From Verrucomicrobiota bacterium (GTDB lineage: Bacteria; Verrucomicrobiota; Verrucomicrobiia; Limisphaerales; UBA9464), in NCBI GenBank assembly GCA_947454705.1, contig CANGKZ010000003.1, forward strand, positions 62,001 through 126,000: a DNA stretch of 64,000 nucleotides. Reading direction: 5' to 3'. How positions within the stretch are numbered: the stretch's first letter is position 1; the number at the start of each line of letters is the position of its first letter. This document shows positions 30,588 to 45,675 of the stretch, piece by piece. Position numbers and translations under genes: made by a program. A model generated the notes under the pieces. The model did no database searches. It was not told the origin of the DNA and worked only from the letters and a program-made list of their open reading frames with translations.

Positions 30588-31877
30588 ATGGAATCCCAGC
30601 GGGCAATCTCGTTCATGCTCCCCTCCCCTGCGCGAAGCCGGTGGATCGCGCTCGTCCTCGCTCCTTTCCTCGTCGCCCTCACCGCGGCGCCCGCGCGGGC
30701 GCAATCCCCCGCTCTCCAACCCGCGGACGGATCGGAAATCCCGGGGCGATTCCAACAGGACCGGTTCGCCATCGGCTTCTGGGTCGCCCCGCAAACCAGC
30801 GAGCGATTGGACGAACGCTACGCCGAGATTGCCAACGCGGGCTTCACCTTCGTCATCGGCCTTTGTGGCGGTCCGAATCCAGAACCGGCCGAGCTCCAGC
30901 TGAAGCGATGCGAGAAGTACGGACTGAAAGCGCTCATTCACATCGGGGCCAACGGCATTGCGTCGGCCCCCGACGGCCCTGCGGTGTGGGGTTATTCCGT
31001 GACCGATGAGCCGAGCCAAAAGCAGTTCCCCGACCTGCGGTCCACGGTCGATGCCATCCGCAAGGCCCGCCCGGGAAAACTCGCCTACATCAACCTGTTT
31101 CCCAACTACGCAACGAAGGAACAATTGGGGTCACCCAATTATGATACGCACGTGGCGACCTTCGTTCGCGAGGTCCGGCCCGATGTGTTGAGCATGGATC
31201 ATTATCCGCAGTTCCGACGCGACCGGGACGGGCGCGACGCGTACTGCGAGAATCTGGCCGTAATGCGCCGGGAGTCGCTCCGGGCCGGGATTCCGTTCTG
31301 GAATTTCTTCAACACCATGCCCTACGGCCCGCATACCGATCCCACGGAGGCGCAGCTGCGATGGCAGATCTACAGCTCCCTCGCCTACGGGGCGAAGGGT
31401 GTGATGTATTTCTGTTACTGGACACCGCGGGGCGATGAATTCCCCAAGGGCGGGGCGATCCTCACCGCGGACGGCCGGCGCACCCGGCACTACGACGAGG
31501 CCCAGAGAATCAATGCCCGGCTGAAACATCTCGGCACGGCGCTGCTTCATGCGAAGAGCCTGGATGTCGTGCGCATCAAACCGCAGGGAAACGGGCCGAC
31601 CGCGCTGCAGAACAGCTTCGTGGAGAGCCTCAACGATGGGGACTATCTGATCGGATCGTTCCAACTTCCGGACGGACGCCGCGCGGTGTTGATCCAGAAT
31701 TACGAATTCGCCTACAGCGCGTGGCCCACGGTGGCGTTCAAAGCCCCGGGGTCCGGAGTGTTGGAAGTCAGCCCGAAGACTGGGGCCTTGGAACCGGTGC
31801 AGGATGACAGTCCCGACATGCCGGGACTTCAGCTCTCCCTCGACGCCGGAGAGGCGCGTCTTTTTGTCCTGCCGTAA
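30588..31877 (+). CDS. Secreted glycoside-hydrolase-like TIM-barrel protein
   Basis: 429 residues from the ATG at 30588; an ATG at 30615 gives a more compact signal peptide and is equally possible. The signal core is ALVLAPFLVALTAAPARAQ. The mature part reads as a (beta/alpha)8 glycosidase-like domain: FAIGFWVAPQTSERLDERYA, GFTFVIGLCGG, WGYSVTDEPSQKQFPDL (candidate acid/base glutamate), VLSMDHYPQF, GIPFWNFFNTMPYG, AYGAKGVMYFCYW. A C-terminal beta domain (about 330-429) follows. It resembles beta-galactosidase-like (GH42-type) families, but I cannot assign a family or substrate. It is likely an exported sugar hydrolase. An octamer repeat array starts 13 bases after its stop. Confidence 0.75.
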   Translation: MESQRAISFMLPSPARSRWIALVLAPFLVALTAAPARAQSPALQPADGSEIPGRFQQDRFAIGFWVAPQTSERLDERYAEIANAGFTFVIGLCGGPNPEPAELQLKRCEKYGLKALIHIGANGIASAPDGPAVWGYSVTDEPSQKQFPDLRSTVDAIRKARPGKLAYINLFPNYATKEQLGSPNYDTHVATFVREVRPDVLSMDHYPQFRRDRDGRDAYCENLAVMRRESLRAGIPFWNFFNTMPYGPHTDPTEAQLRWQIYSSLAYGAKGVMYFCYWTPRGDEFPKGGAILTADGRRTRHYDEAQRINARLKHLGTALLHAKSLDVVRIKPQGNGPTALQNSFVESLNDGDYLIGSFQLPDGRRAVLIQNYEFAYSAWPTVAFKAPGSGVLEVSPKTGALEPVQDDSPDMPGLQLSLDAGEARLFVLP

Positions 31878-31890
31878 GCCGAGTGCGGCG

Positions 31891-31953
31891 GTTGAGGGGT
31901 TGAACCTAGAAACGGCAGTTGAAGGGTTGAAAAGTTGAAACGTTGAAGGGGAA
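31891..31953 (+). repeat. GTTGAANN octamer array, 3' of the glycosidase-like gene
   Basis: Reading with the gene: two units, a spacer (ACCTAGAAACGGCA), then four units. It matches the reverse complement of 32228-32290 over about 61 bases with about five differences. Confidence 0.9.
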
Positions 31954-32017
31954 AACGAGCAGCAACCCCCGACGCGTAGAGAAGAGTTATGATGCGATTC
32001 GACGGGAATCAGGAGAT

Positions 32018-32172
32018 CATAGCCCCGGCCTTTAGGCCTGGGGATTGGGCCTAAACACGGCCAAAGTCCCGGAGGGACGAGAGAAAATAGTGATCGAAAC
32101 TCTGCCGTCCCTCCTCCGGGACTCAACGCCCCACTCTTCTCAAAACCCAGGCCTCAAGGCCTGGGCTATTCT
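32018..32172. repeat. Palindromic intergenic element (AGGCCT/GTCCCGGAGGGAC type), copy 1
   Basis: Outer inverted repeats around TAGCCC and CCAGGCCT...AGGCCTGG enclose an inner pair (GTCCCGGAGGGAC and GTCCCTCCTCCGGGAC). A second copy lies at 53970-54110 in the same orientation. The element could fold into one long hairpin. It has no coding content. Confidence 0.85.
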
Positions 32173-32227
32173 CGGTTCCGAACAGCAATGGGTCTGTCGC
32201 GTGCTCGCGCCCCGACGTGAACTCCCG

Positions 32228-32290
32228 CCCCTTCAACCCTGCAACTTTTTAACCCTTCAACTGCCGTTTCTAGGTTCAACCCTTCAACGT
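32228..32290 (-). repeat. GTTGAANN octamer array, 3' of the PP2C gene
   Basis: On the minus strand it reads as two units, a spacer, then about four partly degenerate units, starting 28 bases after the PP2C stop at 32318. With 31891-31953 it bounds a 400-base segment as long inverted repeats. Confidence 0.9.
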
Positions 32291-32317
32291 CCGCCCCAAA
32301 GAGCGCGACCTCCGACC

Positions 32318-33157
32318 TCAAACCTCCACCACCAGCGCCGTCGTGTTGTCGCGCCCATCTTCCTCGACGGAGGTTTGTACCAGGGTTCTTGCGCGGTTGA
32401 ACTCAGTGCGTTTTCCGGTGGGTTTAGCCGCGATCAATTCCTCCATGCGGGCATCGGACAACCCCTGGTACATGCCATCGGTGCACAGAAGAAACCGGTC
32501 CCCGGGCCCGCAGCGGATGCGGCCCACCTGCGGATTCACAAACTGGTTCCCGCCGCCCAGGGCCTTTTGCAGGACGTGTCGACGCGGATGCGTCCGGGCT
32601 TCCCACGCACTGATTTGCCCGGTGCGGAGCAGCCACGCCACGTAGGTATCATCTTCGGTACACTGAACGAGCGACGTCGTTCCGGCGGGCCGGTGATAGA
32701 TGCGTGAATCCCCCACGTGGGCGAACCACATCCAGCCGGGGGAGAACCAGGCGAGGCTGAGGGTGGTCTCCATGCCGCGGCACTCTTCATAACTCCCACC
32801 CACGTAGGCCAGGGCCCGGTGGATTTCGGAAAACAGGGCGTTGAAGACGCTGGTGAGTCCGGCATCGGTTGCGAGTTCGGGGCATTGATACCGCCGCGGG
32901 AGCAGCGTGGTGATTTTTTCCACCGCGATCCGGCTGGCGAATTCGCCCGCCTTGGCCCCGCCCATTCCGTCGCAGACGGCAAATACGAGATCCGTGGTGG
33001 TCACCCCGGATTCACCGGTTTTGCCGAGCCGTTCCACCTCCTGCGCGTTGAATCGAATCCCGAGGAAGGAATCCTCGTTCAGGGGACGCACCTTGCCGCG
33101 ATCGGTCCAACCCGACCACTGGATGCTTTGCGGAGCTTTGGAAACGGTTCGTTTCAC
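32318..33157 (-). CDS. PP2C-family serine/threonine protein phosphatase
   Basis: 279 residues from a GTG at 33157 that overlaps the stop of the upstream mini-kinase gene by four bases (GTGA). PP2C motifs are complete: GWTDRGKVRPLNEDSFLG (metal-binding acidic pair), VFAVCDGMGGAKAGEFAS, WFAHVGDSRIYHRP, RFLLCTDGMYQGLSD and EDGRDNTTALVVEV. It is a soluble metal-dependent phosphatase acting on phospho-Ser/Thr proteins. Translational coupling to a kinase-like protein suggests that they work as a pair. Confidence 0.93.
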   Translation of the reverse strand: MKRTVSKAPQSIQWSGWTDRGKVRPLNEDSFLGIRFNAQEVERLGKTGESGVTTTDLVFAVCDGMGGAKAGEFASRIAVEKITTLLPRRYQCPELATDAGLTSVFNALFSEIHRALAYVGGSYEECRGMETTLSLAWFSPGWMWFAHVGDSRIYHRPAGTTSLVQCTEDDTYVAWLLRTGQISAWEARTHPRRHVLQKALGGGNQFVNPQVGRIRCGPGDRFLLCTDGMYQGLSDARMEELIAAKPTGKRTEFNRARTLVQTSVEEDGRDNTTALVVEV

Positions 33158-33555
33158 GGTTTGTTGGGGGAGGATTCAAACCCGGGAAGCAGCGTGGCGA
33201 GTTCGAAATCGATGAGACAGAACCGGCCGTCGCGCATGCGGTAGGTGACATTGCGCATGTGGGGGTCGTCGTGACGCACCCCGAACGGCTCCAACTCAGC
33301 GAACAGCGCCTTGGTGCGCTCTTCATCGAGGTGATCCACGCGACTGCCGCAGTTGGAGGTCACGATCCTGAGCCGCTCCGGATCCTGTTCCAGCAGACGC
33401 GGAACGAAGGGGCAGGCCACACGTTCGAGGTGCTGGAGGATTCTGACCTCGTTGGCGAACCGGGTCGCCGCATCCGAGCCGTGGAAGACCTTTTCCACCC
33501 GGCCGTCGAAGCTGAGGCGAACGGTTGATCTCAGGGTGTCTTTTATCTGGAGCAT
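33154..33555 (-). CDS. Minimal kinase-like protein coupled to PP2C
   Basis: 133 residues, about half a normal kinase domain. N-terminal beta strands contain a lysine (RVEKVFHG) and a helix with glutamate (FANEVRILQHLERV), echoing the Lys/Glu pair of the kinase N-lobe. The C-terminal part has VRHDDPHMRNV, like the catalytic HxDxxxxN loop, and FCLIDFELA, like the DFG metal site. The activation segment and the rest of the C-lobe are missing. It may be a RIO/lipopolysaccharide-kinase-type small kinase, or a pseudokinase regulating the phosphatase. It is the first gene of a two-gene operon. Confidence 0.65.
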   Translation of the reverse strand: MLQIKDTLRSTVRLSFDGRVEKVFHGSDAATRFANEVRILQHLERVACPFVPRLLEQDPERLRIVTSNCGSRVDHLDEERTKALFAELEPFGVRHDDPHMRNVTYRMRDGRFCLIDFELATLLPGFESSPNKP

Positions 33556-33851
33556 ACTGCGCCCAATCGCATGGGTTCCGAATGCTGCAGCCTCCTTTGT
33601 TTAGGAGGCCATCAGTTCCAAGAATCAGTTTCTAAACGCTGGCCCGGATCCGAACTCGCGGCGAGGTGAAATGCATCCAAGATTGCCACTCCTCCCCTGT
33701 CGTCTTTCGACCACATCGCTCAATCAGGGCCAGTTCAGAATCATCAAAAAAGGGGGTTTTCTGATCGGATGAATGAAGCCCGCTCATGAATGGGCTCAAA
33801 ACCCAGCCTTTTCTTGATTCTTGGAGCTCACTCGGCAAAGTCGCCGCCATT

Positions 33852-33867
33852 CGGCATCCATTCTGCT
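33852..33867 (+). promoter_or_regulatory. Candidate sigma-54 promoter of the glutamine synthetase gene
   Basis: CGGCAT-CCATT-CTGCT keeps GG and GC at -24/-12 spacing, 54 bases before the last base preceding the glnII ATG at 33921. It is almost the same motif as at 27844-27859. The remainder of the 365-base gap before it (33556-33851) shows no gene. Confidence 0.58.
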
Positions 33868-33920
33868 TTTGTAGGTCTCTCGGGATCCGAAAATAGAACA
33901 GCAACAACACTCACTCATTC

Positions 33921-34967
33921 ATGGCCAAATACAAACTCGAATACATCTGGCTCGACGGCTACGAACCCACCGCGAACCTTCGCAGCAAGACCCAGATCAA
34001 GGAATTTGCCAAATTTCCCAAGCTCGAAGAGCTCCCGCTCTGGGGATTTGACGGCAGCTCGACCCGCCAGGCCGAAGGCCGCAGCTCTGACTGCGTGCTG
34101 AAGCCCGTGGCGGTCTATCCCGATCCGGACCGCAAGAACGGCGTGCTCGTTCTCTGCGAAGTCATGAATCCGGATGGCACCCCGCACGTGAGCAACGCTC
34201 GCGCGACCATTCTGGACGACTCCGGAGCCTGGTTCGGCTTCGAGCAGGAATATTTCCTCTACAAGGACGGCGCTCCCCTCGGCTTCCCGGTCGGCGGCGG
34301 TTATCCTTATCCGCAGGGTGAGTACTACACCGGCGTTGGCTTCAAGAACGTCGGCGACATCGCCCGCGAGATCGTCGAGAGCCACATCGACCTCTGCCTC
34401 GATGCCGGCATCAACCTCGAAGGCATCAACGCCGAGGTCGCCAAGGGCCAGTGGGAATTCCAGATCTTCGGCAAGGGCTCCCGCAGCGCTGCCGACCAGA
34501 TGTGGGTCGCCCGGTACCTGTTGCTCCGCCTGACTGAAAAGTACGGCGTCGATGTCAACTGGCACTGCAAGCCCCTCGGCAAGGATGTCGATTGGAACGG
34601 CTCCGGCATGCACTCCAACTTCTCGACCACCTTCATGCGCGAAGTCGGCGGCAAGGAGTACTTCGAGGCGCTCATGGCGGCCTTCGACAAGTACAAGAAC
34701 GAGCACATCGCTGTGTACGGCCCGGACAACCACCTGCGTTTGACCGGTCTCCACGAGACCCAGTCGATCGACAAGTTCAACTACGGCGTCGCGAACCGCG
34801 GAGCCTCCATCCGCGTTCCCCACAGCTTCGTCAACAACGGCTACAAGGGTTACCTCGAAGACCGTCGTCCGAACTCCCAGGGCGATCCGTACAAGATCGC
34901 GAGCCGCATCCTTCAGACCATCGCCACGGTGCCCCTGCCCGCGGCGCCCAAGAAGGCCAAGAAGTAA
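33921..34967 (+). CDS. glnII: Glutamine synthetase type II (eukaryote-like GSII)
   Basis: 348 residues, far shorter than GSI (about 470), matching GSII. Signatures are YIWLDG near the N-terminus, [20 protein letters not shown] (ATP/glutamate side), the metal-binding E108xE110 in [20 protein letters not shown] and NRGASIRVP. It makes glutamine from glutamate, ammonia and ATP in the cytoplasm. GSII has no adenylylation site, so control is likely transcriptional; a sigma-54-like motif is 54 bases upstream. It sits about 4 kb from the P-II/amtB cluster and is followed by a strong terminator. The lysine-rich tail (PKKAKK) is unusual. Confidence 0.95.
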
Positions 34968-34998
34968 GGAGAATCCGGTCCCCGGATCATCTTTCAAC

Positions 34999-35032
34999 AA
35001 AACGGCGCAGGCTCAGGCTTGCGCCGTTTTTT
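34999..35032 (+). terminator. Rho-independent terminator of glnII
   Basis: AAAACGGCGCA pairs with TGCGCCGTTTT around a ten-base loop and is followed by TTGTTTTT, 31 bases after the stop. Confidence 0.93.
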
Positions 35033-35137
35033 GTTTTTCCCGGGTGGCGATTTTTCGCGCTATGCGGTTCCACGGACTCTGCCTCGCGGTGGTATTCTCT
35101 CGCATCTTCGAATTTCGGCCGCGGGGTTCCCTACACG

Positions 35138-35265
35138 TTTGGAGTCCCGCGTTTACGCGGCTTTGCTTTTGGACGCGGGACCATCGAACGGTTGGAAATC
35201 AACCGGCTGCATCCCTCGAGACGCGCCTCCCCGAACCGTCTGAAGACGGGACTCCAAGCGAATGA
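35138..35265. repeat. REP-like palindrome pair (GGAGTCCC type), copy 1
   Basis: Two short palindromes, CCGCG-TTTA-CGCGG (about 35147-35160) and CCGTCT-GA-AGACGG (35236-35249), each flanked outwards by GGAGTCCC or its complement. A second pair lies at 44401-44520 in inverted orientation. Confidence 0.82.
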
Positions 35266-35290
35266 GAAAACCCTCGCGGCAGCGTCGAAT

Positions 35291-35354
35291 TCCCCTTCAA
35301 CGCTTCAACGCTTCAACTTTTCAACCCTTCAACTGCCGCACTTAGGTTCACCCC
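35291..35354 (-). repeat. GTTGAANN octamer array, 3' of the aldehyde dehydrogenase gene
   Basis: On the minus strand, starting 16 bases after the stop at 35371: a degenerate unit, spacer, then five octamers. It has one more unit than the other copies, so copy number varies. Confidence 0.88.
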
Positions 35355-35370
35355 GCCCACCGGGCGCCTC

Positions 35371-36828
35371 TCAAACCGAGTAGTCGAGATACACCGTCTT
35401 GCTGCGGGTGTAGAAGTCGAGTGCGGCCACACCCTGTTCGCGGAACGAATCCGTGCTCGAACTCTTCATGCCGCCAAACGGGGCCTGCAGCGCGAGACCG
35501 GTGGAAATCTGGTTCACCTTCACCACGCCGGCTTCGATGCGCTCGGAGTAGAGCATCGCCTTCTTGAAGTCGCGGGTGACGATCGATGCCGACAGTCCGA
35601 CATCGACGCTGTTCGCCACCGCGAGCGCTTCGTCGAAGGAATCCACCGCCAGCACGGCCACCACGGGGCCGAACACTTCCTCGCGCGCAATGCGCATGGA
35701 CGGCGTCACGCCGGTCAAAACGGCGGGCTGCATGAACCAGCCGTTCGCCAGATCGCCTTCGGTCAGCGGTGCGCCACCCCAGGCCACTTCCGCGCCTTCG
35801 GCCTTGGCGATCTGGATCCATTCCAGGTTTCCCTTGAGCTCGGCTTCACTGACGGCAGGTCCCATTTGGACTCCGGCAGCGAGGCCCGGACCGACCTTCC
35901 AGCCCTTGGCCAGCGCAACGAGCTTCTCGGTGAACGCGGCGACCACCGGGCGTTCGACAATCACGCGACTGGTGGCGGTGCAGGCTTGTCCGGTGAGACC
36001 GAACCCAGCGCGCGCCACGAGGCTCGCGGCAAGGTCCAAGTCAGCATCGGCGAGCACGATGGTCGGGTTCTTGCCGCCCATTTCCATCTGCGCCCGCACC
36101 ATGCGCGGAGCGAGGCTTTGATAGATGGATTTTCCGACGGCGGTGGATCCGGTGAAGCTGACTCCCTGGACTTCGCGTCGTGAAGCCAACTCCGCAGCGA
36201 ACGGGCGACCGTCCCCGGTAACCACATTCAGCACACCCGCCGGCAATCCGGCTTCAGCCAGGATCGCAGCCAACTCGAGCGCGAGCGCGGGCGCCTGCGA
36301 GGCGGGTTTGAGGACCACGGTGTTGCCGCAGACCAGCGCCGGGGCGAGTTTCCACGCCGGGATGGCGATGGGGAAATTCCACGGGGTGATCAACCCCACC
36401 ACACCGAGCGGTTCGCGTCGGGTGTAAAGCATGTTGCCCGGCAGATCGTGGGGAATGGTTTGTCCGCCGAGCTGAAAGCCGAGTCCGCCGTAATAGCGAA
36501 GAATGTCGGCGGCGCGCTGCACTTCCCCGGTGGCTTCGGCGAGGGTCTTGCCTTCCTCGCGGGTGAGCAGTTCGGCGAGGGCGCCCTTGCGCGATTCAAT
36601 CAACTGCGAGGCCTTGGCCAGGATGCGGCCGCGGGCGACGGAAGTTTGCGCGGCCCATTTCGGAAACGCAGCGGCGGCGGCATCGACAGCGGCCTTCGCC
36701 TCGGGAGCTCCACCCTGGGCGTAATCGCCCACGATCTCATGGTGGTTCGCCGGATTGATCGTTTGGAACCGCAGCCCGGAGGCGGCGGGAATGGATTGGC
36801 CGTTGATGTGGAGCTCGTAGCGGTTCAT
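35371..36828 (-). CDS. NAD(P)-dependent aldehyde dehydrogenase (succinate- or 2-oxoglutarate-semialdehyde type)
   Basis: 485 residues, full ALDH length. The substrate tunnel and cofactor motifs are present: ITPWNFPIAIPAWKLAPAL, VLKPASQAPALAL, FTGSTAVGKSIY, the general base glutamate in MEMGGKNP, and the catalytic cysteine in TGQACTATSR. The GQACTATSR form is close to alpha-ketoglutaric-semialdehyde dehydrogenases of sugar-acid catabolism, and succinate-semialdehyde dehydrogenases are also similar. Soluble, oxidising an aldehyde acid to the diacid. It is transcribed alone, divergent from the antiporter at 36968. Confidence 0.9.
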   Translation of the reverse strand: MNRYELHINGQSIPAASGLRFQTINPANHHEIVGDYAQGGAPEAKAAVDAAAAAFPKWAAQTSVARGRILAKASQLIESRKGALAELLTREEGKTLAEATGEVQRAADILRYYGGLGFQLGGQTIPHDLPGNMLYTRREPLGVVGLITPWNFPIAIPAWKLAPALVCGNTVVLKPASQAPALALELAAILAEAGLPAGVLNVVTGDGRPFAAELASRREVQGVSFTGSTAVGKSIYQSLAPRMVRAQMEMGGKNPTIVLADADLDLAASLVARAGFGLTGQACTATSRVIVERPVVAAFTEKLVALAKGWKVGPGLAAGVQMGPAVSEAELKGNLEWIQIAKAEGAEVAWGGAPLTEGDLANGWFMQPAVLTGVTPSMRIAREEVFGPVVAVLAVDSFDEALAVANSVDVGLSASIVTRDFKKAMLYSERIEAGVVKVNQISTGLALQAPFGGMKSSSTDSFREQGVAALDFYTRSKTVYLDYSV

Positions 36829-36967
36829 GCGGAAAGGATAGTCGGGGAGCGGGCGGGAGAAACCTCAAAACTGCACCCACGTCCGCTGCTTCCAGTTCAC
36901 AACCAAGGCGCATCCTTCAACGAGGGCTTGCGGCTTCGCAGGGAGCGATGAGAGTTGGAGCATCGGC

Positions 36968-38413
36968 ATGACACTTCTCGCCCTCTCCCAGGCCCAGGCT
37001 CCGAACCCATGGATGGTTCTGCCGTTCGTGGCCCTGCTTGCGATCATCGCCCTCGCCCCGTTGTTGTTTGCCGATTGGTGGACCCGCTTCTACCCGGCCG
37101 TGGCCCTGAGCCTCGGCGCGGTGGTGATTGCCTACTACGCGGTCGGACTCCAGGCCTTCGATCAACTCGCCCACACCGGACACGAGTACGTGAGCTTCAT
37201 CTGCCTGATTGGATCGCTCTACATCGTGAGCGGAGGAATCCACATCCAGGTGCGCGGAGAAACCACCCCGGGGTTTAACACCGCGTTCCTGTTCGCCGGC
37301 GCGCTGCTGGCCAACATTCTCGGCACCACCGGGGCCTCCATGCTGCTCATCCGCCCCTGGATCCGGATGAACAAATACCGCCTCACTGGACACCACATCG
37401 TGTTCTTCATCTTCATCGTCTCCAACGTGGGAGGATGCCTCACTCCGATCGGCGATCCGCCGCTGTTCCTCGGCTATCTCAAGGGAATCCCCTTCTGGTG
37501 GGTGGCCGAGCATTGCTGGCCGATCTGGGCCGTGGGCTTGGGAATCCTGCTGGCGATGTTCCTGGTCGTGGACACCCTCAACTTCCGTAAGGCCCCGCGC
37601 GCGGTGCGGGCCGAACACGTGGATGAGCCTGATTGGTTCCGGTTTGAAGGGCTCGGAAACCTCTTCTTTCTGGCGATGATCCTCGGGGCAATCCTCTTCG
37701 CCGAACGCCCCGCGTTTCTGCGCGAGGGCATCATGCTGGCCGCGGCGGCGGGATCCTATTTCACCACCCGACGCGACATCCACCAGGCCAACCACTTCAA
37801 TTTCCACCCCGTCCAGGAGGTGGCGATCCTGTTCGTCGGCATCTTCGCCACCATGATGCCCGCGCTCGATTGGCTGTCGCAAAAGGCCGGCGCTCTCGGT
37901 CACCCGTCCCCCGCCTTTTTCTACTGGGGCTGCGGCATTCTCAGCAGCGTGCTCGACAACGCCCCCACCTACCTCGGGTTCCTCAGTGCCATTTTTGGGG
38001 CCTACGTGGATGCCGACACCGTCCAGCAGGTCCAGCACCTGGTGCAGACCGGCGGCGCGGACCTGTCCACCTTTGTTCACGGGGAACACTCGGAGCAGAT
38101 CCGGAACACTTTCGCCGCACTGCAGAAATTCCACGGCGACGCAGTGGCGCGACGTCAGGTCGATGTGGAAGCCATTGAAATGGCCTTCCTGCTCGGCAAT
38201 GCGGCGTTCAACCACTTCATTGTCGCCATCTCGGTCGGTGCCGTGTTCTTCGGGGCCAACACCTACATTGGCAACGGGCCGAACTTCATGGTGAAGGCGA
38301 TCGCCGATCATCAGGGCGCAAAGACACCTTCGTTCCTCGGCTACATCTTCCGCTACTCGCTGCCCATCATGCTCCCCATGCTGGTGGTGGTGTGGCTGAT
38401 CTTCTTCCGCTGA
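36968..38413 (+). CDS. NhaD/CitM-type sodium:proton antiporter
   Basis: 481 residues, with about eleven to twelve hydrophobic segments. Motifs of the ion-transporter superfamily are visible: GALLANILGTTGASMLLIRP, VSNVGGCLTPIGDPPLFLGYLKG, WGCGILSSVLDNAPTYLGFL and TYIGNGPNFMVKAI. The paired TTGAS/PIGDPP and NAPTY/NGPN segments are typical of re-entrant loops in NhaD and DASS-like transporters. A soluble insert lies at about residues 350-410. Predicted inner-membrane Na+/H+ exchange; carboxylate transport is an alternative. Confidence 0.85.
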   Translation: MTLLALSQAQAPNPWMVLPFVALLAIIALAPLLFADWWTRFYPAVALSLGAVVIAYYAVGLQAFDQLAHTGHEYVSFICLIGSLYIVSGGIHIQVRGETTPGFNTAFLFAGALLANILGTTGASMLLIRPWIRMNKYRLTGHHIVFFIFIVSNVGGCLTPIGDPPLFLGYLKGIPFWWVAEHCWPIWAVGLGILLAMFLVVDTLNFRKAPRAVRAEHVDEPDWFRFEGLGNLFFLAMILGAILFAERPAFLREGIMLAAAAGSYFTTRRDIHQANHFNFHPVQEVAILFVGIFATMMPALDWLSQKAGALGHPSPAFFYWGCGILSSVLDNAPTYLGFLSAIFGAYVDADTVQQVQHLVQTGGADLSTFVHGEHSEQIRNTFAALQKFHGDAVARRQVDVEAIEMAFLLGNAAFNHFIVAISVGAVFFGANTYIGNGPNFMVKAIADHQGAKTPSFLGYIFRYSLPIMLPMLVVVWLIFFR

Positions 38414-38549
38414 CCCGCACGCCTGCCCGCACTCCCGGGTCCAACCGAAAAACGCGGCAATCCCGGTTTGCCAATTCTACGCAGACGTACCACTTTCCGT
38501 CTGTTCCGGGACTGAATGATCGGTTCCCGGGCGTTGGATTCCTGAATTT

Positions 38550-39995
38550 ATGTCCGATTCCGCCTCTGTTCCGCATCTCCCGGCGCTTCGTTTGGGGCGC
38601 AGCTACGAATCCCTTGAGAAGATCGAAGTTCGCGATCACCGGACCGGCGAGCTCAAGGCCGTGGTCTCGACCGTCAATGGCGGCATCGTCAAACGCGACC
38701 TCGCCAAGATCTCCACGGCGCGTGCGGCGCTGAAGAAGTTCACGGTGGCGGAACTCATCGCCCTGTCGGCCAAGGCGGGCGACCTCTTCCTGAACGGCAC
38801 GCTGCCGCTCGGCGACCGCGGGCACACGCAGTCCCCGGATGAATACGTGGCCACGCTCAGCCGCACCTCCGGTCTGCCCCACGTGATGGTGCGCCGCAAC
38901 ATGGCCAAGCTGCACTACGCGATGACCCACCTGTCCGAGGTGTTGAATGGACTCTCGCGCGGATTGGATCTGTCGATCCTCGATCGCGGCTTCGGCGAGC
39001 AGTTCGGCACCAAGCTCAGCTTCTTCCCCACCGCGTCCGCTCTCGGGTTGGTGATGCCGAGCAATTCGCCCGCGGTGAATTCCCTTTGGATTCCGGCCAT
39101 TGCGCTGAAGACCCCGGTGGTCATCAAGCCGGGCAAGGAAGAGCCGTGGACTCCGTACCGCCTGATCCAGGCCTTCATCACGGCGGGAGTTCCTGCCGAG
39201 GCGTTTGGGTTCTACGCCACCGACCACGACGGTGCGGCGACCATTCTCAACACCTGCGGACGCGCCCTCATCTTCGGTGACAAATCCACCACCCAGCAGT
39301 ACGCCAACAATCCGGCCATCCAGATCCACGGCCCGGGCTGGAGCAAGTTCGTTCTGGGCGAAGACTGCGTGGACCAGTGGAAGGATTACATCGATGTGAT
39401 GGTCAGCGCGATCAGCGACAACGGCGGACGCTCCTGCATCAATGCCTCGGCCATCGTTGTGCCGCGGCACGGAGCGGAGATCGCCGATGCCCTCGCGCAG
39501 CGGCTCGGCCCCATTCAGCCCACCTCGCCCGAGGACGAAGCCGCGCGTCTCTCCGGATTCGCCAATCCCAAGATGGCCGACTTCATCGACGGCCAGATTG
39601 AAGAAGGATTGAAAACCGCCGGTGCAGTGGACGTGACCGCGAAGTATCGCAACGGCCCGCGCAAGGCGATCCACGACGGCGGCACCTACATGCGTCCGAC
39701 CATCGTGCAGTGCGACTCCTTCGCGCATCCGCTGGCCAACCGCGAGTTCCTCTGCCCCTACGCCAGCGTGGTCACCTGCGCGCAGTCCGACGTGCTGAAG
39801 CAGATCGGCTACACCTTGGCCTGCACCGCCATCACCAAGGATCCGGCATTCATCGGGGAACTGGAAGCCTACGCCCACATTGAGCGCCTCAACATTGGTC
39901 CGGTGAGCACCATGAAGATCTCGTGGGACCAGCCGCACGAGGGCAACATGTTCGAATTCCTCTGGCAGCGCCGGTCGATCGAACGCGCCTGGTAA
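38550..39995 (+). CDS. Aldehyde dehydrogenase family protein
   Basis: 481 residues. It diverges from classical ALDH in the N-terminal half, but the core is clear: VMPSNSPAVNSLWIPAIALKT (substrate side), VVIKPGKEEPWTPYRL, and the catalytic cysteine in DNGGRSCINASAIVVP. The usual EMGGK general-base block is not obvious; FVLGEDC occupies that area, so catalysis may rely on another residue. Soluble; substrate unknown. It follows the antiporter by 136 bases on the same strand and ends with a strong terminator. Confidence 0.85.
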   Translation: MSDSASVPHLPALRLGRSYESLEKIEVRDHRTGELKAVVSTVNGGIVKRDLAKISTARAALKKFTVAELIALSAKAGDLFLNGTLPLGDRGHTQSPDEYVATLSRTSGLPHVMVRRNMAKLHYAMTHLSEVLNGLSRGLDLSILDRGFGEQFGTKLSFFPTASALGLVMPSNSPAVNSLWIPAIALKTPVVIKPGKEEPWTPYRLIQAFITAGVPAEAFGFYATDHDGAATILNTCGRALIFGDKSTTQQYANNPAIQIHGPGWSKFVLGEDCVDQWKDYIDVMVSAISDNGGRSCINASAIVVPRHGAEIADALAQRLGPIQPTSPEDEAARLSGFANPKMADFIDGQIEEGLKTAGAVDVTAKYRNGPRKAIHDGGTYMRPTIVQCDSFAHPLANREFLCPYASVVTCAQSDVLKQIGYTLACTAITKDPAFIGELEAYAHIERLNIGPVSTMKISWDQPHEGNMFEFLWQRRSIERAW

Positions 39996-40020
39996 TTCCG
40001 AAAAGCGCCCCCAATAAACG

Positions 40021-40051
40021 AAAACGGCGGACCACCCGGTCCGCCGTTTTT
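40021..40051 (+). terminator. Rho-independent terminator of the aldehyde dehydrogenase gene
   Basis: A thirteen-base perfect stem (AAAACGGCGGACC/GGTCCGCCGTTTT) with an ACCC loop and a T-run, 25 bases after the stop at 39995. It may also serve the convergent gene ending at 40086. Confidence 0.95.
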
Positions 40052-40085
40052 GTTTAGGTACCAACTTTGAGACGCGGTCTGCGGC

Positions 40086-40802
40086 TCAAGTTCCGAGCTT
40101 CTTCTTGGCTTCGTCGGGCACCGAGACGGTGGTGGAGCCGACATTCTTGATTTCGTAGGTGGTGGTGCGGGTGATGTCGCGTTCCTCACCCTGCATGGAA
40201 ACGGTGGCCGACACCTTGACCTGCACCTTGGCGAGCTTGCCTTCCTTGAGCCAGACCTTGAGGGATCCCTTGGCATTCTTGGGCTCGGGAGCCTGACCGC
40301 CAGGGCGGCCGTTGCGACCGGCAACTTCCTTGGCGCCTTCCTCGGTGAGGTCGCCGGAGATCACGCCGTTGGCTTCCTTCAGCTCCTTGGTCTTGTCCGC
40401 AATCTTGGCCAGATCATCCGCCGGGAGACGCGTGCGGAGCAACATGCCGCCACGGCCGCGTCCACCGCCGCCACCGCCACCGCCCTGGGCTGCCGCGCGA
40501 ACTTCCTCGGCGGTTTGCCAGCCATTCTCGCCTTTCAGAACGCCCTTTTCGCCCTTCAAGACGGCGGTGGTGGTGTTGCCGTCGCGCTCCGATTCCACGA
40601 GGGCGAACCCGCCTTTTTCCACCTTGCCGGTGATGGTGGGAGGCGTGAATTGGGCCCCTTCAATCTCCGTGGTGGACACCCAAGTGTAATTGGCGGCCTC
40701 GGAAAGCGCTTTCGCTGCGGCTTTTACATCGTCCTTGGAATCCGCAAACACAGCGGTCCAGGCGAGCGTCGCGAGCACGGTGGTGGTGAGAAATCGTTTC
40801 AT
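40086..40802 (-). CDS. Exported hypothetical protein with glycine-rich linker
   Basis: 238 residues. A Sec signal (about 4-20, ending FADS) is followed by a beta-rich region (TWVSTTEIEGAQFTPPTITG, FALVESERDGNTTTAVLKGE). A Gly/Arg linker (GGGGGGGGRGRGG) at about 107-119 precedes a helical and beta-rich C-terminal half ending in VPDEAKKKLGT. The strand pattern loosely recalls LolA/LppX-like lipoprotein-carrier folds, but no motif confirms it. No lipobox cysteine. Function unknown. The 322-base upstream gap to dciA contains only an octamer array and no gene. Confidence 0.6.
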   Translation of the reverse strand: MKRFLTTTVLATLAWTAVFADSKDDVKAAAKALSEAANYTWVSTTEIEGAQFTPPTITGKVEKGGFALVESERDGNTTTAVLKGEKGVLKGENGWQTAEEVRAAAQGGGGGGGGRGRGGMLLRTRLPADDLAKIADKTKELKEANGVISGDLTEEGAKEVAGRNGRPGGQAPEPKNAKGSLKVWLKEGKLAKVQVKVSATVSMQGEERDITRTTTYEIKNVGSTTVSVPDEAKKKLGT

Positions 40803-41075
40803 GGGATGGGAATGAATGGGGATGAGTGAACGGAATGCAGGTGCGTGTGGTTGAACAAACAGCCAGTAACGGGGAACGGGGGGTTAGACTCCGAACGCGG
40901 TTGCGGGGTTACACGCGGGATTTGAGGGAGGGAGGGGGAAATTAAGAATGCTCAATTCAAAATGAAAAATGGGACCTTCGGCCCGAATCCGTTGGGCTTT
41001 GAGCCTTGGGCGTTGGATTCCATTTCGCTGAGCTCAAAAAAAGAACCCGCCTTGCCCGCGAGCCGAATGTTTCCT

Positions 41076-41126
41076 CCCCTTCAACGCTTCAACTTTTCAA
41101 CCCTTCAACCTGCGCTCCTGCACCTC
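41076..41126 (-). repeat. GTTGAANN octamer array, 3' of dciA
   Basis: On the minus strand, four octamer units lie within about 20 bases after the stop at 41125. The distal two-unit part and spacer seen in other copies are replaced by unrelated sequence. Confidence 0.85.
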
Positions 41127-41526
41127 ACCCCACCCGGAAACTGATCCGCTGCACGGTGGTTTTGCCGGCGGCGAGTTGGAGGCGTTCCAGGATTTCGTGA
41201 CGGCGGTAGCGGACGATCTCGGAGAGCCAGGTGTTGCTGTCCACCGAGACAAAAAGCGTGCCCCGGGCCAGTCCGGTGGGCTTGGCGTGGGCGGCGATCT
41301 GCGGATCAATCACGCGTCCCCACACCGATTGGATCTGCGATTCCGCCAGCTTCTGATCCAGCCGCATTCCTGAGAGCACCTGGGGGAGAATGTCGCCCAC
41401 CGTCTTGCTGGCCCGGCGCGCTGCGATTTCGGCGGCCACCTGACCGGCTCCCCGCCAGGCCGTCAGGACCCGGGCGCGCGCTTGATTCGCGATCCGGGCT
41501 TTGGCGGCGGGTGATTTCGGAAGCAT
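41125..41526 (-). CDS. dciA: DciA-type (DUF721) replicative helicase-associated protein
   Basis: 133 residues. A basic N-terminal stretch is followed by the DUF721 domain: VGDILPQVLSGMRLDQKLAE, IQSVWGRVIDPQIAAHAKP, GTLFVSVDSNTWLSEIVRYR, REILERL-like RHEILERLQLA, ending VQRISFRVG. This KH-like domain is found in DciA, which loads DnaB in bacteria lacking DnaC/DnaI. Cytoplasmic. It stands alone on the minus strand, divergent from 41655. Confidence 0.87.
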   Translation of the reverse strand: MLPKSPAAKARIANQARARVLTAWRGAGQVAAEIAARRASKTVGDILPQVLSGMRLDQKLAESQIQSVWGRVIDPQIAAHAKPTGLARGTLFVSVDSNTWLSEIVRYRRHEILERLQLAAGKTTVQRISFRVG

Positions 41527-41654
41527 GATGGCACCTGAGGCTGGAGCTGGGGCCCGGCGCGGTCAAGTGAACCCATCCCCTGCTGTATTAACCCAAAATC
41601 CCACGGAAGTTTTTGGTTTCGCCCCCGGGGATCGTTTGCCATTGTGAATCCATC

Positions 41655-42605
41655 ATGCGTTGGTTCCGTCGTGCTCTCGCGTTCGCCGCTGTCACACTGT
41701 GGGTTGGAGTCGCCCTCGGGGCTGAGTTCCGTCTGGTGACGGGCGACGTGTACAAAGGCGAGCTTTCCGCCGCCGACAAGGATGGCCTCGTGGTCCGCCT
41801 CGAAAGCGGCGACTACTCGCCCCGAATCGACTGGGCCAAGCTCTCCGACGAAACCCTCCGCGAGCTCGCCGAGAACCCCAAAGCGCGGCGCTTTGCGGAA
41901 CCGTTCGTCGAAGCCCCGGCCGAAACGATCGCCATCCAGCAGGCCAAGGAAATCAAGGTCAAGCAGCCCACCCGCCTGGAGCTGCCCGAAGTCAAAAAGG
42001 GCCTGATTCCCGCCCTGACCACCCCGAATGGACTGATCCTCCTCGGACTCCTTTTCGTTGCAAACCTCTACGCGGGCTATGAAGTGGCTCGTTTCAAGTG
42101 GCGGCCGGCCGCCTTGGTTTGCGGTCTTTCCGCCGTGTTCCCGGTGTTCGGCCCGCTGATTTTCCTCGTGCTCCCCCGCAACGTTCCCGAAGAACAGGAG
42201 AACGCCACGGAAGCCGCCCTGCAGCAGACCCACCTGTCCGTCGGCTCGCAGGCGCCCGCCGGAGGTGCTCCGGCAGGTGGTGCAGCGGCCGCGCTCGGTT
42301 TGTCCAAAGGCCATGCCGGCCAAGGAGCCGCCGATGGATTGCCCCGCCTCTTCAAGCGGGGAGAGACCACCTTCAATCGCCGCTTCTTCGAGACTCAGTT
42401 CCAGAACTTCTTCCGCGTGGTGGCTTCCGAAGCCGATCGCGATCTCGTCATTGATGTTTCCGCCGGCAAGAAGAGCGTGGTCGCCACGCGCATCAGCCGC
42501 ATCTCGGCAACGGACATTCATTTCAAGACCGCCAACAGCCAGGAAATCGGCGTTCCGTTTGCCGAAATGTCCGAGGTCAAGCTTCGCCACAAGGACGCCG
42601 CCTAA
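41655..42605 (+). CDS. Exported/membrane hypothetical protein
   Basis: 316 residues from the ATG at 41655. A signal peptide (about 6-22, ALGAEF) is followed by a small beta domain (FRLVTGDVYKGELSAADKDG), as in proteins that read out a nucleotide- or ligand-like small domain. Two transmembrane helices lie at about 125-170 (PNGLILLGLLFVANLYAGYE, AALVCGLSAVFPVFGPLIFL). An Ala/Gly-rich linker and a C-terminal soluble domain (FKRGETTFNRRFFETQFQNF, VVATRISRISATDIHF) complete it. No known family recognised. It is followed 50 bases later by adk on the same strand. Confidence 0.6.
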   Translation: MRWFRRALAFAAVTLWVGVALGAEFRLVTGDVYKGELSAADKDGLVVRLESGDYSPRIDWAKLSDETLRELAENPKARRFAEPFVEAPAETIAIQQAKEIKVKQPTRLELPEVKKGLIPALTTPNGLILLGLLFVANLYAGYEVARFKWRPAALVCGLSAVFPVFGPLIFLVLPRNVPEEQENATEAALQQTHLSVGSQAPAGGAPAGGAAAALGLSKGHAGQGAADGLPRLFKRGETTFNRRFFETQFQNFFRVVASEADRDLVIDVSAGKKSVVATRISRISATDIHFKTANSQEIGVPFAEMSEVKLRHKDAA

Positions 42606-42655
42606 GCCACGGCAGTCCGCAACCCATTTCCGAGCCGCACTGTCCGCTCCCGCCG

Positions 42656-43288
42656 ATGAAATATCGCGCCATCCTTCTTTTCGGAGCCCCCGGTGCCGGC
42701 AAGGGCACGCAGGGCAAGATCTTGGGGCAAATCCCCAACTTCGTTCATTTCTCCTGCGGCGACGCCTTCCGCAATCTGCGCGTGGACTCCAAACTGGGTC
42801 GCGTGTTTGTGGAGTTCGCCTCCAAGGGATCGCTCGTGCCGGATGAACCCACGATCGAACTCTGGACCACTTCCATCTCGGCGATGAAGGTGACCGGTCG
42901 ATTCAATCCCGAGGCCGACACCCTGCTCCTCGACGGCATTCCCCGGAATCCGAACCAGGCGCGGATCATGAAGGAAATGGTCGATGTTGTGGCCGTCTTC
43001 AACCTCTTCTGCCCGCAGATCGACAAGCTCATCGTCCGCCTCCAGCGCCGCGCGCTGAAGGAGAACCGGCTCGACGACGCCAACGTGGAGACCATCCGGA
43101 CCCGCCTCGAGACCTACAAGCGCGAGACCCGCGCCGTGCTCGAGTGCTACCCGGAAAGCATCATCCACCAGATCGATTCCACGCAGGAACCCATGCGGGT
43201 GCTGCTGGACATCCTGCAGATCATTTCCCGGATTCCGAAGCCCGCCATCAGCGATGGCAACACGACCTTCGCCGGCCCCGCGGCCTGA
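42656..43288 (+). CDS. Adenylate kinase-like nucleoside monophosphate kinase (short LID)
   Basis: 210 residues. The P-loop GAPGAGKGTQ is at 10-19, the NMP-binding FSCGDAFRNL at about 33-42, and DGIPRNPNQA corresponds to the adenylate kinase DGFPR signature. The LID region RLQRRALKENRLDDANVETI is the short type without zinc cysteines. Arginines in RRALKENRLDD and TIRTRLETY match catalytic positions. It probably converts AMP + ATP to 2 ADP, though IPR in place of FPR makes the substrate less certain. It sits 75 bases before fmt. Confidence 0.85.
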   Translation: MKYRAILLFGAPGAGKGTQGKILGQIPNFVHFSCGDAFRNLRVDSKLGRVFVEFASKGSLVPDEPTIELWTTSISAMKVTGRFNPEADTLLLDGIPRNPNQARIMKEMVDVVAVFNLFCPQIDKLIVRLQRRALKENRLDDANVETIRTRLETYKRETRAVLECYPESIIHQIDSTQEPMRVLLDILQIISRIPKPAISDGNTTFAGPAA

Positions 43289-43363
43289 TTTCCGCATCCT
43301 TTAACGCACCGGCACCAGGTCGGCGATCGAGGACCTGAACCCAATTCGAGGCGACACCGTTCC

Positions 43364-44305
43364 ATGAGCTCTCCCATTCGCCTCGCTTTCATGGGCACCC
43401 CCGAACTGGCCCGGGTGGTGTTGGCGCGGCTTGCCGACAGTCCGAAGTTTGAGGTCTGTGCCGTGGTCGCCCAGCCCGATCGCCCCGCCGGACGCTCGCT
43501 CGAACTGAAACCCCCTGCGGTAAAAGTCGAAGCGCTCGCCCGCGGACTCCCGCTCTTCCAACCGGAGAAGGCGCGTCAACCGGACTTCATCGAACTGGTT
43601 CGCTCGTGGGCGCCCACGGTCATCGTGGTGGCGGCCTACGGACAGCTCCTCCCGCAGGCCCTGCTCGATGTTCCATCGCACGGCTGTGTAAACCTTCACA
43701 CTTCACTCCTCCCCCGGTGGCGCGGTGCGGCGCCGATTCAGTGGGCCATTGCCTCGGGCGATGCCGAGACCGGCGTGACGCTGATGCGCATGGATGCCGG
43801 ACTCGACACCGGTCCCATGATCTCCGTGGCCCGCACGCCGATCGGATCGGACGACAACTCGGCGATTCTCCACGACCGCCTCGCGGTGCTGGGCGCAGAC
43901 CTGCTTGTGGATTCCCTTCCCGATTACGTTGCCGGCAAACTGACGCCCCGCGCGCAACCGATCGAAGGCGTGACGATCGCCCGCAAAATCTCGCGCGAAG
44001 ACGGTCGGATCGACTGGAAGCTCCCGGCCGTCGAACTGTGGAACCGCCTCCGCGGCTTCACCCCGTGGCCCGGTCTCCACTCCTTCGTGCCCGCCGATCC
44101 GAAACCAAAATTGGTCAAGATCCTCCGCGCGGTGCCGTCGGAACAAACGGGCGAACCAGGATTGGTACTCCCCTCCGCCGCGGGCTCACTCGTGGTGGGA
44201 TGCGGGGCCGGATCGTTGAACATTTCCGAACTGCAGTTGGAAGGCGGGCGTCCCCAAAGCGCCGCGCAGTTCCTGATGGGACATCGGCCCGCGAGGTTTG
44301 AGTAG
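43364..44305 (+). CDS. fmt: Methionyl-tRNA formyltransferase
   Basis: 313 residues, normal length. It opens with LAFMGTPELARVVLARL and contains the formyl-transferase catalytic block VNLHTSLLPRWRGAAPIQWA and the GVTLMRMDAGLDTGPMI signature. A C-terminal oligonucleotide-binding-like domain (GRIDWKLPAVELWNRLRGF, then PWPGLHSF) completes it. It formylates Met-tRNA-fMet using 10-formyl-THF; the initiator tRNA gene is in the same window. No def (peptide deformylase) is adjacent. An octamer array follows about 25 bases after its stop. Confidence 0.96.
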   Translation: MSSPIRLAFMGTPELARVVLARLADSPKFEVCAVVAQPDRPAGRSLELKPPAVKVEALARGLPLFQPEKARQPDFIELVRSWAPTVIVVAAYGQLLPQALLDVPSHGCVNLHTSLLPRWRGAAPIQWAIASGDAETGVTLMRMDAGLDTGPMISVARTPIGSDDNSAILHDRLAVLGADLLVDSLPDYVAGKLTPRAQPIEGVTIARKISREDGRIDWKLPAVELWNRLRGFTPWPGLHSFVPADPKPKLVKILRAVPSEQTGEPGLVLPSAAGSLVVGCGAGSLNISELQLEGGRPQSAAQFLMGHRPARFE

Positions 44306-44330
44306 AGCGTGGGCGAGTGGTGGAAGAAGG

Positions 44331-44368
44331 GCAGTTGAAGGGTTGAAAAGTTGAAGCGTTGAAGGGGA
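44331..44368 (+). repeat. GTTGAANN octamer array, 3' of fmt
   Basis: Four octamer units in the direction of fmt, beginning with the conserved GGCAGTTGAAGG. It pairs as an inverted repeat with 44541-44603. Confidence 0.88.
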
Positions 44369-44400
44369 ATCCGACGCTACCACGAGGTTTTTATCATTCG

Positions 44401-44520
44401 TTTGGAGTCCCGTCTTCAGACGGTTCGGGGAGGCGGGTTTGAGGCAACCCCGGGGTGAAATCTACTCCTACATTCGATTCGCAGCCCAACAGCAGAGCCG
44501 CGTAAACGCGGTACTCCATA
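44401..44520. repeat. REP-like palindrome pair (GGAGTCCC type), copy 2
   Basis: TTTGGAGTCCCGTCTTCAGA followed by CGG opens it and CCGCGTAAACGCGGTACTCC closes it. It is the copy at 35138-35265 in reverse orientation, here enclosed between two octamer arrays. Confidence 0.82.
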
Positions 44521-44540
44521 CGAGTGAGCAAACATCTCCC

Positions 44541-44603
44541 CCCCTTCAACGCTTCAACTTTTCAACCCTTCAACTGCCGTTTTTAGGTTCAACCCTTTAA
44601 CTT
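44541..44603 (-). repeat. GTTGAANN octamer array, antisense upstream of the transglycosylase gene
   Basis: On the minus strand: two units, spacer CTAAAAACGGCA, four units. It is the only copy not following a stop codon in the same orientation. Confidence 0.88.
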
Positions 44604-44658
44604 CAGCGCCCCCCATCCCACAGGTGCAAATGCGCGAACTTCCACTAGGGTGCGGGAC

Positions 44659-45654
44659 ATGAAGCGCATCGGATCCTGCCTTGCTGCGGTGGCCCTGTTC
44701 GGGGGCGTCCATGCCGCGGCACAGACCGATCCGGATCCCGGGGCCCCGGGTTTCGATTCCCTGCTGCAGTCCGGCACCGCGTTGCTCCAGCAGGAACTCA
44801 ATCGACGCGGACTCGAGCTCGCCATCCCCATCGATGTGGAGCAGACGCGCGATTGGTTGAAGGCGCTCCAGGGGCGGTTCGAGGACGAGTACGTTCTCGA
44901 TCTTTCAAAACTCCGCCCCGCAGCGGAGGCAGCGCTTCCCTGGCTGGAGTCCACCGAGGAGCTTAAACCGTATGCCGACTGGCTTCGGTCGCGGATGGAC
45001 TATTTCCGCGCCGCGGAGGAATTGGATCGGATGATTCCGAAGGTCCCAGAGCCGCAAACTCCGCCGGCCAAAACACCCAAAAAGGGGACGTCACCCGAGC
45101 CGGAACCTCCGATCGTGGTCCGCGCCAAACCCACTCCGGAGCAGCAACGACGCGTGTGGACGCGGGTGCTGGCCCTGGAGCCGTGGCCCGAGGAGGCGGG
45201 AAAATATGTCACGCGGTTGAAGCCCGTGTTCGCATCCGAGAAAGTTCCGAGTGAGCTGGTGTGGATCGCCGAGGTGGAGTCGTCGTTTCGTCCCGAGGCC
45301 ACGAGTCCCGCAGGCGCTGCGGGGTTGTTTCAATTGATGCCGAAGACCGCGAAGCAGGAAGGGCTCAGCCTGTGGCCCTGGGACCAGCGCCGCGATCCGG
45401 AAAAAAGCGCGCACGCCTCGGCCCGGTATCTCCGGTCGCTGCACCAGGAGTTCAAGGACTGGTCTCTGGTCCTCGCCGCCTACAATGCAGGCGACGGCAA
45501 GGTGCGCACGCTGCTCAAACGGCACGGCACGCGGAGCTACGACCGCATCGCCGCGCATCTGCCAGCGGAGACCCAGCTCTACGTACCAAAAGTGGAAGCC
45601 GTCATCCGCCGCCGCGAGGGCAAGGCCCTGGCGGAGCTCGTGGTTCCGCGCTGA
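44659..45654 (+). CDS. Exported lytic transglycosylase (SLT/MltD-like)
   Basis: 331 residues from the ATG at 44659; a GTG at 44650 is also in frame. A signal peptide (hydrophobic about 4-20, HAAAQ) is followed by a helical region with a proline-rich linker, then a C-terminal SLT domain. Signatures are the catalytic glutamate in IAEVESSFRPEATSPAGAAG, LFQLMPKTAKQEGL, SARYLRSLHQEF and LVLAAYNAGDGKV. It cleaves peptidoglycan glycosidic bonds, releasing 1,6-anhydro-MurNAc. No LysM repeat is seen. Periplasmic. Confidence 0.9.
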   Translation: MKRIGSCLAAVALFGGVHAAAQTDPDPGAPGFDSLLQSGTALLQQELNRRGLELAIPIDVEQTRDWLKALQGRFEDEYVLDLSKLRPAAEAALPWLESTEELKPYADWLRSRMDYFRAAEELDRMIPKVPEPQTPPAKTPKKGTSPEPEPPIVVRAKPTPEQQRRVWTRVLALEPWPEEAGKYVTRLKPVFASEKVPSELVWIAEVESSFRPEATSPAGAAGLFQLMPKTAKQEGLSLWPWDQRRDPEKSAHASARYLRSLHQEFKDWSLVLAAYNAGDGKVRTLLKRHGTRSYDRIAAHLPAETQLYVPKVEAVIRRREGKALAELVVPR

Positions 45655-45656
45655 AT

Positions 45657-45674
45657 CCGCGACCGAAGTCGCGG
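45657..45674. terminator. Hairpin between convergent genes
   Basis: A perfect seven-base stem (CCGCGAC/GTCGCGG) with a CGAA loop fills the 21-base gap between the stops of the transglycosylase and phosphoesterase genes. There is no T-run. Confidence 0.5.
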
Positions 45675-45675
45675 C

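Follow-up and report, generated by a model that had tools for sequence, protein, structure and literature searches.

Octamer arrays in a Verrucomicrobiota genome as probable arms of small intergenic elements with IS1380-type ends

We analyzed tandem arrays of an 8-base unit, here called octamer arrays and in tandem form (GTTGAANN)4, in a 64,000-nucleotide stretch of DNA (the window) from a Verrucomicrobiota bacterium (Limisphaerales; UBA9464; GenBank assembly GCA_947454705.1, contig CANGKZ010000003.1, positions 62,001 to 126,000) and in its genome and relatives. Most of these arrays are the paired, inward-facing ends of small intergenic elements, a pairing missed by a preliminary description of the window, which had read them as repeats following stop codons. 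They are probably the subterminal arms of a complex of non-autonomous elements that resemble miniature inverted-repeat transposable elements (MITEs) and have IS1380-type ends, the arms being runs of the elements' own target core.

Arrays as paired ends of small elements

All six octamer arrays of the preliminary description were recovered in the window. The assembly (5.45 Mb, 95.7% complete) was sampled in tiles totaling 1.004 Mb and taken in contig order, except that they include the 64-kb window and a 20-kb tile (C4:1-20000) known beforehand to contain a match; the main tile counts were repeated without the window and the C4 tile, which leaves 45 array ends. With an array defined as at least three units carrying at most three substitutions, the tiles held 59 arrays, against 12 in a reversed, not complemented, control and none after shuffling in 50-bp blocks. 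Across the whole genome, the 34-mer array (≤3 mismatches) gave 215 matches and its reversed control none, and the unit-spacer-unit pattern GTTGAANNNNGAAACGGCNGTTGA gave 161 matches with none in its control. Seven other genomes of the same genus held only 0–2 matches each to the array pattern, indicating a burst of multiplication at the species level. Unlinked copies in the window genome, and both arms of the elements, share the same unit order (GG, AA, GC, GG). To the tiles we added 68 regions picked among the matches listed for the unit-spacer-unit pattern, which has GTTGAA on its outside and thereby favors TTGAA flanks.

Pooling the tiles with the match regions, and octamer arrays with arrays of CACAGATG type, array ends at most 700 bp apart formed 97 facing pairs, compared with 9 back-to-back and 32 same-strand pairs. 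Given the 97 facing pairs, we rejected the view of the arrays as stand-alone motifs of 3' untranslated regions, at least for arrays paired as element ends. The elements fall into three families: T1, with an octamer array at both ends (about 242 bp); T2, which combines one octamer array with a CACAGATG-type array at the opposite end (264 or 343 bp); and T3, with two CACAGATG-type arrays (142 bp from anchor to anchor, and 190 bp when the terminal repeats are counted). Terminal repeats with at most three mismatches stand on both sides in 50 of the 97 pairs (180–377 bp), as in MITEs. MITEs also lack a transposase of their own, and PF13701 is absent from this genome, the coding content of the interiors being judged on PF13701 alone. 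A 190-bp element that has IS1380-type ends and shows 5-bp duplications likewise has the CACAGATGGACACAGATG-type repeat as its arm (for example C10:92150-92339). Repeats like CACAGATGGACACAGATG occur in other bacteria, and a common origin may be involved.

Terminal repeats, relatives and target sites

What the preliminary description took for a 13–14-base spacer is CCTRRAAACGGCR-GTTGAA, the terminal repeat of an IS1380-type transposon. The 13-base part CCTRRAAACGGCR (≤4 mismatches) stands directly outside the array at 85 of 149 ends overall and at 20 of 53 in the tiles (15 of 45 without the window and the C4 tile), compared with a background of 0.45%. The preliminary description had named membership of a known transposon terminus as an outcome that would overturn its reading; this is what we find for spacer-bearing arrays and not for spacerless ones. 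The layout that it reported, two units, a spacer and four or five units, can be seen in the window and takes on a new meaning, since a spacer-bearing array consists of target units, a terminal repeat and the element's own units. The arrangement is thus largely an insertion junction, its outer units belonging to the target and its inner units to the element. The corresponding features of the window are listed below (outer units and palindromes as read from the letters).

31905..32274, no strand: 370-bp element bounded on each side by an IS1380-type terminal inverted repeat (0 mismatches in both), with a REPIN-like interior
31905-31923 (+) and 32256-32274 (-): terminal inverted repeats of the 370-bp element, 0 mismatches
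31918-31951 (+) and 32228-32261 (-): inward octamer arrays of the 370-bp element
31891..31904 (+): outer octamer units of the left flank (the "two units" of the preliminary description), whose final five bases, TTGAA, abut the terminal repeat
32275..32290 (-): outer octamer units of the right flank
32019..32175, no strand: palindromes AGCCCCGGCCT...AGGCCTGGGG, AGGCCTGGGCTAT and GTCCCGGAGGGACG, resembling repetitive extragenic palindromes (REPs), including positions 32021-32043
35293..35346 (-): octamer array (35293-35333) and diverged terminal repeat CCTAAGTGCGGCA (35334-35346), with 3 mismatches to the 19-base terminal repeat
41076..41109 (-): octamer array with no terminal repeat and no partner array found, 15 nt from the dciA stop
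44334..44574, no strand: T1 element with the shared interior between arrays 44334-44367 (+) and 44541-44574 (-), whose outer edges span 241 bp
44575..44587 (-): right-end terminal repeat CCTAAAAACGGCA of this T1 element, 0 mismatches; its left counterpart, 44321-44333, has 5 mismatches

The element bearing the array at 35293-35333 extends leftward across the shared interior to about 35113, and its opposite end was not located.

Autonomous relatives of these ends exist in other genomes. A scan of public genomes for GAACCTNNAAACGGCRGTTGAA found at least 97 stretches in several phyla, and in comparable ones the motif starts insertion elements. In the Verrucomicrobiia metagenome-assembled genome (MAG) TGS_VER2, a 1741-bp element lies at two sites, 99.9% identical and with TTGAA on both sides, and its 529-residue open frame matches PF13701 above the cut-off. 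A genome of the window's order carries an autonomous element of 1714 bp (L278) that has these ends, is flanked by TTCAC on either side and encodes a transposase that also exceeds the PF13701 cut-off. The two transposases are 57% identical, and the best NCBIfam model for both is IS1380 (NF033539), with scores of 120.4 and 154.6; as these fall below its cut-off of 180, both belong to a divergent branch. PF13701 was present in 13 of the 39 genomes of the relatives search. Terminal-repeat ends also occur in L084 and L088 (CAMATU010000153.1, CAMATU010000031.1), from a MAG titled Klebsiella pneumoniae (title taken as deposited), and an element together with its flank is common to the same-family genome G019 (L334) and the MAG "uncultured Verrucomicrobia bacterium LaPlata-a_bin-0377" (L093).

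Two further properties of these ends were compared across 61 element families. In 18 of the 61, an internal palindrome, TCACCCNNNGGGTGA (at most one mismatch), stands on the inner side of the terminal repeat, mostly about 40–100 bp inward (L031, L034, L061/L058, L069, L092 and others), and in none does it stand on the outer side; it may be a second cis-element of this branch of IS1380-type elements. As a trait shared across phyla, subterminal tandem arrays were unconvincing, with 9 of 61 families periodic inside and 4 of 61 in outer controls, and we rejected this idea.

Flanking sequences bear on how the elements arrived. Among the 50 elements with both terminal repeats, 29 had identical flanking 5-mers, most commonly TTGAA and TTCAA, compared with a mean of 11.3 and at most 19 in 2000 permutations; the other 47 of the 97 pairs were left out because no terminal repeat was recognizable at three or fewer mismatches. 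Rejoining the flanks gave an array-like empty site in 30 of the 50 and in 23 of the 29 with an exact duplication, some agreeing at 34 of 34 bases, in a set that favors TTGAA flanks. Since octamer arrays are thus rebuilt at the empty sites, related elements do insert into arrays. Of the intergenic TTGAA/TTCAA sites in the tiles, 185 of 582 fell within arrays (153 of 523 without the window and the C4 tile); for intergenic GTTGAA sites the figure was 185 of 317. A special preference for arrays was considered and dropped: the 30 of 50 first stood against 7.4% of sampled TTGAA/TTCAA sites, a contrast that fades with an intergenic background and with the tiles alone.

Several observations count against the reading of the arrays as arms of elements with IS1380-type ends. 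The tiles alone showed identical 5-mers in just 2 of 12 elements, and the other 38 (27 identical) come from regions picked by a pattern that favors TTGAA and intact ends, so the duplication rate of the population lies below 29 of 50; the 2 of 12 also leaves our confidence in the MITE/IS1380 account a little lower. Landings in arrays numbered 3 of 12 in the tiles, no more than the supply of sites. In the window, the 370-bp element is flanked by TTGAA and TTCAA, non-identical 5-mers that give no clean target duplication. Among the seven T1 elements in tiles not chosen for a match (one of them in the window), five had no terminal repeat, two had one and none had both, and T1 flanks gave no consistent target duplication. 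Perfect 34-base arrays exist without a terminal repeat. The genome, at 95.7% completeness, gave no match to PF13701 or to the 529-residue frame. Finally, in two genomes of the order (G056 and G061), most arrays are lone runs, and a terminal-repeat-like stretch lies beside only 3 of 58.

If the MITE/IS1380 account holds, the arrays would have grown as tandem copies of GTTGAA, a sequence that is at once the inner end of the terminal repeat and the target core. Each insertion would then add new target sites, so that copies nest, and the elements would have been moved by a transposase now absent from the assembly. Old copies would have lost their terminal repeats while the long hairpin persisted. 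Another origin of the octamer, as an excision footprint of a 5-bp duplication plus 3 nt, was rejected, as the spacers are NNG of many kinds and not AGG/CCT (by eye).

Gene ends and competing explanations

The preliminary description had placed five of the six window arrays within about 30 bases of a stop codon and in the direction of that gene, and we find distances to the facing stop of 14, 28, 17, 15 (array core 41109) and 26 nt; the sixth end, at 44603, faces a gene start. Its gene identities PP2C, aldehyde dehydrogenase, DciA and formyltransferase were borne out by Pfam at E ≤1e-5, which returned no match for the "glycosidase-like" gene (30507-31877). The bias toward gene 3' ends, and its orientation, extends to the tiles, where genes were called with a custom hexamer script rather than a standard gene finder: 39 array ends out of 52 face a stop, at distances up to 60 nt in 32 cases and up to 30 nt in 26 (32 of 44, 25 and 23 without the window and the C4 tile), compared with 10.7% within 60 nt and 5.5% within 30 nt of a facing stop under random intergenic placement.

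This association arises mainly because octamer elements favor convergent gaps. Of 103 convergent gaps, 25 hold such an element, compared with 19 of 595 other gaps (odds ratio 9.7, p = 1.6e-11, leaving out gaps with only a CACAGATG-type array); without the window and the C4 tile, the counts are 21 of 92 and 17 of 546 (odds ratio 9.2, p = 1e-9). Elements with only the other array type show no bias (4 of 82 convergent gaps versus 18 of 594 others, p = 0.33). As the ends of one element face inward, the end beside a stop reads in the direction of the gene. Within the gap, the median distance to the stop was 0.53 of the leftover gap, with no clear extra pull compared with even placement; the Kolmogorov–Smirnov p = 0.0006 against uniformity arises because element-filled gaps count as 1. 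T3 elements also lie near facing stops, with 11 of 18 distances at most 18 nt, so closeness to a stop is not peculiar to octamers. Owing to its 8-base period, the consensus array has TGA in all three forward frames and lacks a stop in every reverse frame, an arrangement that would render it harmless behind a gene. Selection against other locations, a useful hairpin or the two together could produce the convergent bias; the hairpin would be least harmful in such gaps or would serve as a two-way 3'-end structure. In one convergent gap of the window, an intrinsic-terminator-like hairpin (GGCGCA...TGCGCC, followed by TTTTTTGTTTTT) lies at 35003-35040, after a glutamine-synthetase-like gene (33921-34967) and on the far side of the octamer element.

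That the arrays function as RNA elements at the 3' ends of mRNAs, whose hairpin terminates or protects both convergent transcripts or which offer tandem sites to an RNA-binding protein, strikes us as improbable, even with the closeness to stops (26 of 52 ends within 30 nt) and the convergent odds ratio of 9.7 (9.2 on the reduced tiles; p = 0.33 for the other array type) in its favor. Folding also speaks for it, with stems far stronger than in shuffles: 31891-32290 gives -220 kcal/mol (z -16.6), and 44330-44605, the window T1 element, gives -134.9 kcal/mol (z -12.4) with an uninterrupted outer stem of 38 bp. Elements found by their interior alone (57 of 70, keeping those above 100 bits) had the left array in 48 of 57 cases, and these left arrays were 93% identical to the consensus, compared with 84% for the interior, under a 22-of-34 rule that favors arrays. 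For the 20 left arrays without a terminal repeat, however, the lead is small (87.6% versus 83.8%). Co-variation between arms is likewise not clear: across 20 elements, arm identity within an element was 0.894 versus 0.884 when permuted, with 256 of 5000 permutations reaching the observed value, and 722 of 5000 did so for arm pairing, both weak signals. No Rfam family exceeded threshold in 31000-46000, and purging of insertions upstream of genes would yield the same distribution.

A more serious contender, if one to which we give somewhat less than even weight, is that palindromes with octamer arms make up a class of intergenic element in their own right, which arose or spread by another route, and that IS1380-type elements merely colonise their target-run arms. 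T1 elements often lack terminal repeats (allowing up to four mismatches, six of all 20 had none, 11 had one and three had both), and the convergent bias tracks octamer arrays, not the terminal repeat alone. The identity of copies to their nearest relative is 0.80 for T1 and 0.95 for T3, and by this measure T1 copies look older. Exact octamer arrays also occur in 24 of 195 genomes of the order, our own included, with none in the reversed control. Two genomes of other families each have about a hundred (overlapping) array matches, and 20 such loci that we read included several short inverted pairs, some without a terminal repeat (L321, L331). Yet the 58 arrays of G056 and G061 formed only two facing pairs (diverged arms would be missed), which lends no support to a structure common to the order. 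Moreover, in sister genomes some arrays directly follow terminal-repeat-like sequence (L300, L301, L302, L312; G001 and G007), and GTTGAA is found in both the terminal repeat and the array. G001 also holds diverged T1-like copies. Two sister genomes lack the T1 element of C2:21931-22174 in the corresponding gap, which is too diverged to give an exact empty site.

Two simpler or better-known sources of such repeats fare worse. Minisatellites of 8 bp, formed by slippage and unrelated to transposition, would explain the uniform (GTTGAATC)n runs in G056, where 14 perfect units reach the contig ends (G056:C145:22052-22165 and G056:C484:5986-6098), suggesting that longer arrays may break assembly. 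In the window genome, however, unlinked copies and the two arms have their unit order in common, and the arrays are joined to a shared interior, and we regard this origin as very improbable. We see barely any chance that the arrays are REPINs (REP doublets forming hairpins) moved by a REP-associated tyrosine transposase (RAYT; Y1_Tnp). The genome has one Y1_Tnp match, and adjoining palindromes also lie inside 31905-32274: BLAST of the RAYT locus matches 32143-32174, and the palindromes inside the window element resemble those after this one RAYT-type gene. But the 3.3-kb RAYT locus yielded no octamer array, no terminal repeat and no T1 core. At that locus (G000:C26:62346-62693; L456), an inverted pair of palindromes, AGCCCAGGCCT/AGGCCTGGGCT, and GTCCCGGAGGGAC follow the sole Y1_Tnp match; AGGCCT palindromes are present, without an octamer array.

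Relation to known elements and meaning for the order

With IS1380-family elements, the elements described here share the PF13701 transposase of their autonomous relatives, short terminal inverted repeats and a 5-bp target duplication; they differ in that the window genome has no transposase gene match, octamer arrays are found inward of the terminal repeat and elements are nested in one another. The transposon piggyBac is akin to IS1380. It likewise has a short AT-rich insertion target, which in the available part of its description (PMC7351741) is the tetranucleotide TTAA, in contrast to the 5-bp TTGAA/TTCAA found here. BrickBuilt, a MITE of Porphyromonas gingivalis, has tandem repeats within its inverted-repeat ends and contains a 23-nt minisatellite, as far as the available text describes it (PMC4596501); here, by contrast, 8-nt arrays occupy the two ends in opposing orientation, and arrays contain related small elements. 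REPs and REPINs, according to the accessible portion of PMC3733652, are palindromic, form plausible RNA hairpins and lie mainly downstream of coding regions, between unidirectional or convergent open reading frames, features that our elements share; unlike them, ours have no octamer array beside the RAYT gene. Among the top-listed papers of the open-licence PubMed Central literature on IS1380, piggyBac, MITEs, Verrucomicrobia repeats and REPs, we recognized no description of this element. The available main text of a review of prokaryotic MITEs (PMC10969869) contains no occurrence of IS1380, tandem repeat or nested, and the available part of a paper on Thiomargarita MITEs (PMC4853749) contains no occurrence of IS1380.

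A more far-reaching reading, which we offer tentatively and somewhat doubt, is that the complex carries target-site arrays in both arms, such that every insertion plants landing pads for its kin. Arrays would then supply about one third of intergenic target sites, with a by-product hairpin (octamer arms of 30–40 bp) in about one quarter of convergent gaps that ends transcripts arriving from either side.

Several genera of the order have the octamer core. With defined ends, a target and a candidate transposase, a repeat that had no name becomes a testable transposition system, and it suggests how a small element may add to the harmless targets available to it. Convergent gaps that have or lack the long hairpin also form a natural set that can be used to study the effects of hairpins on transcripts.

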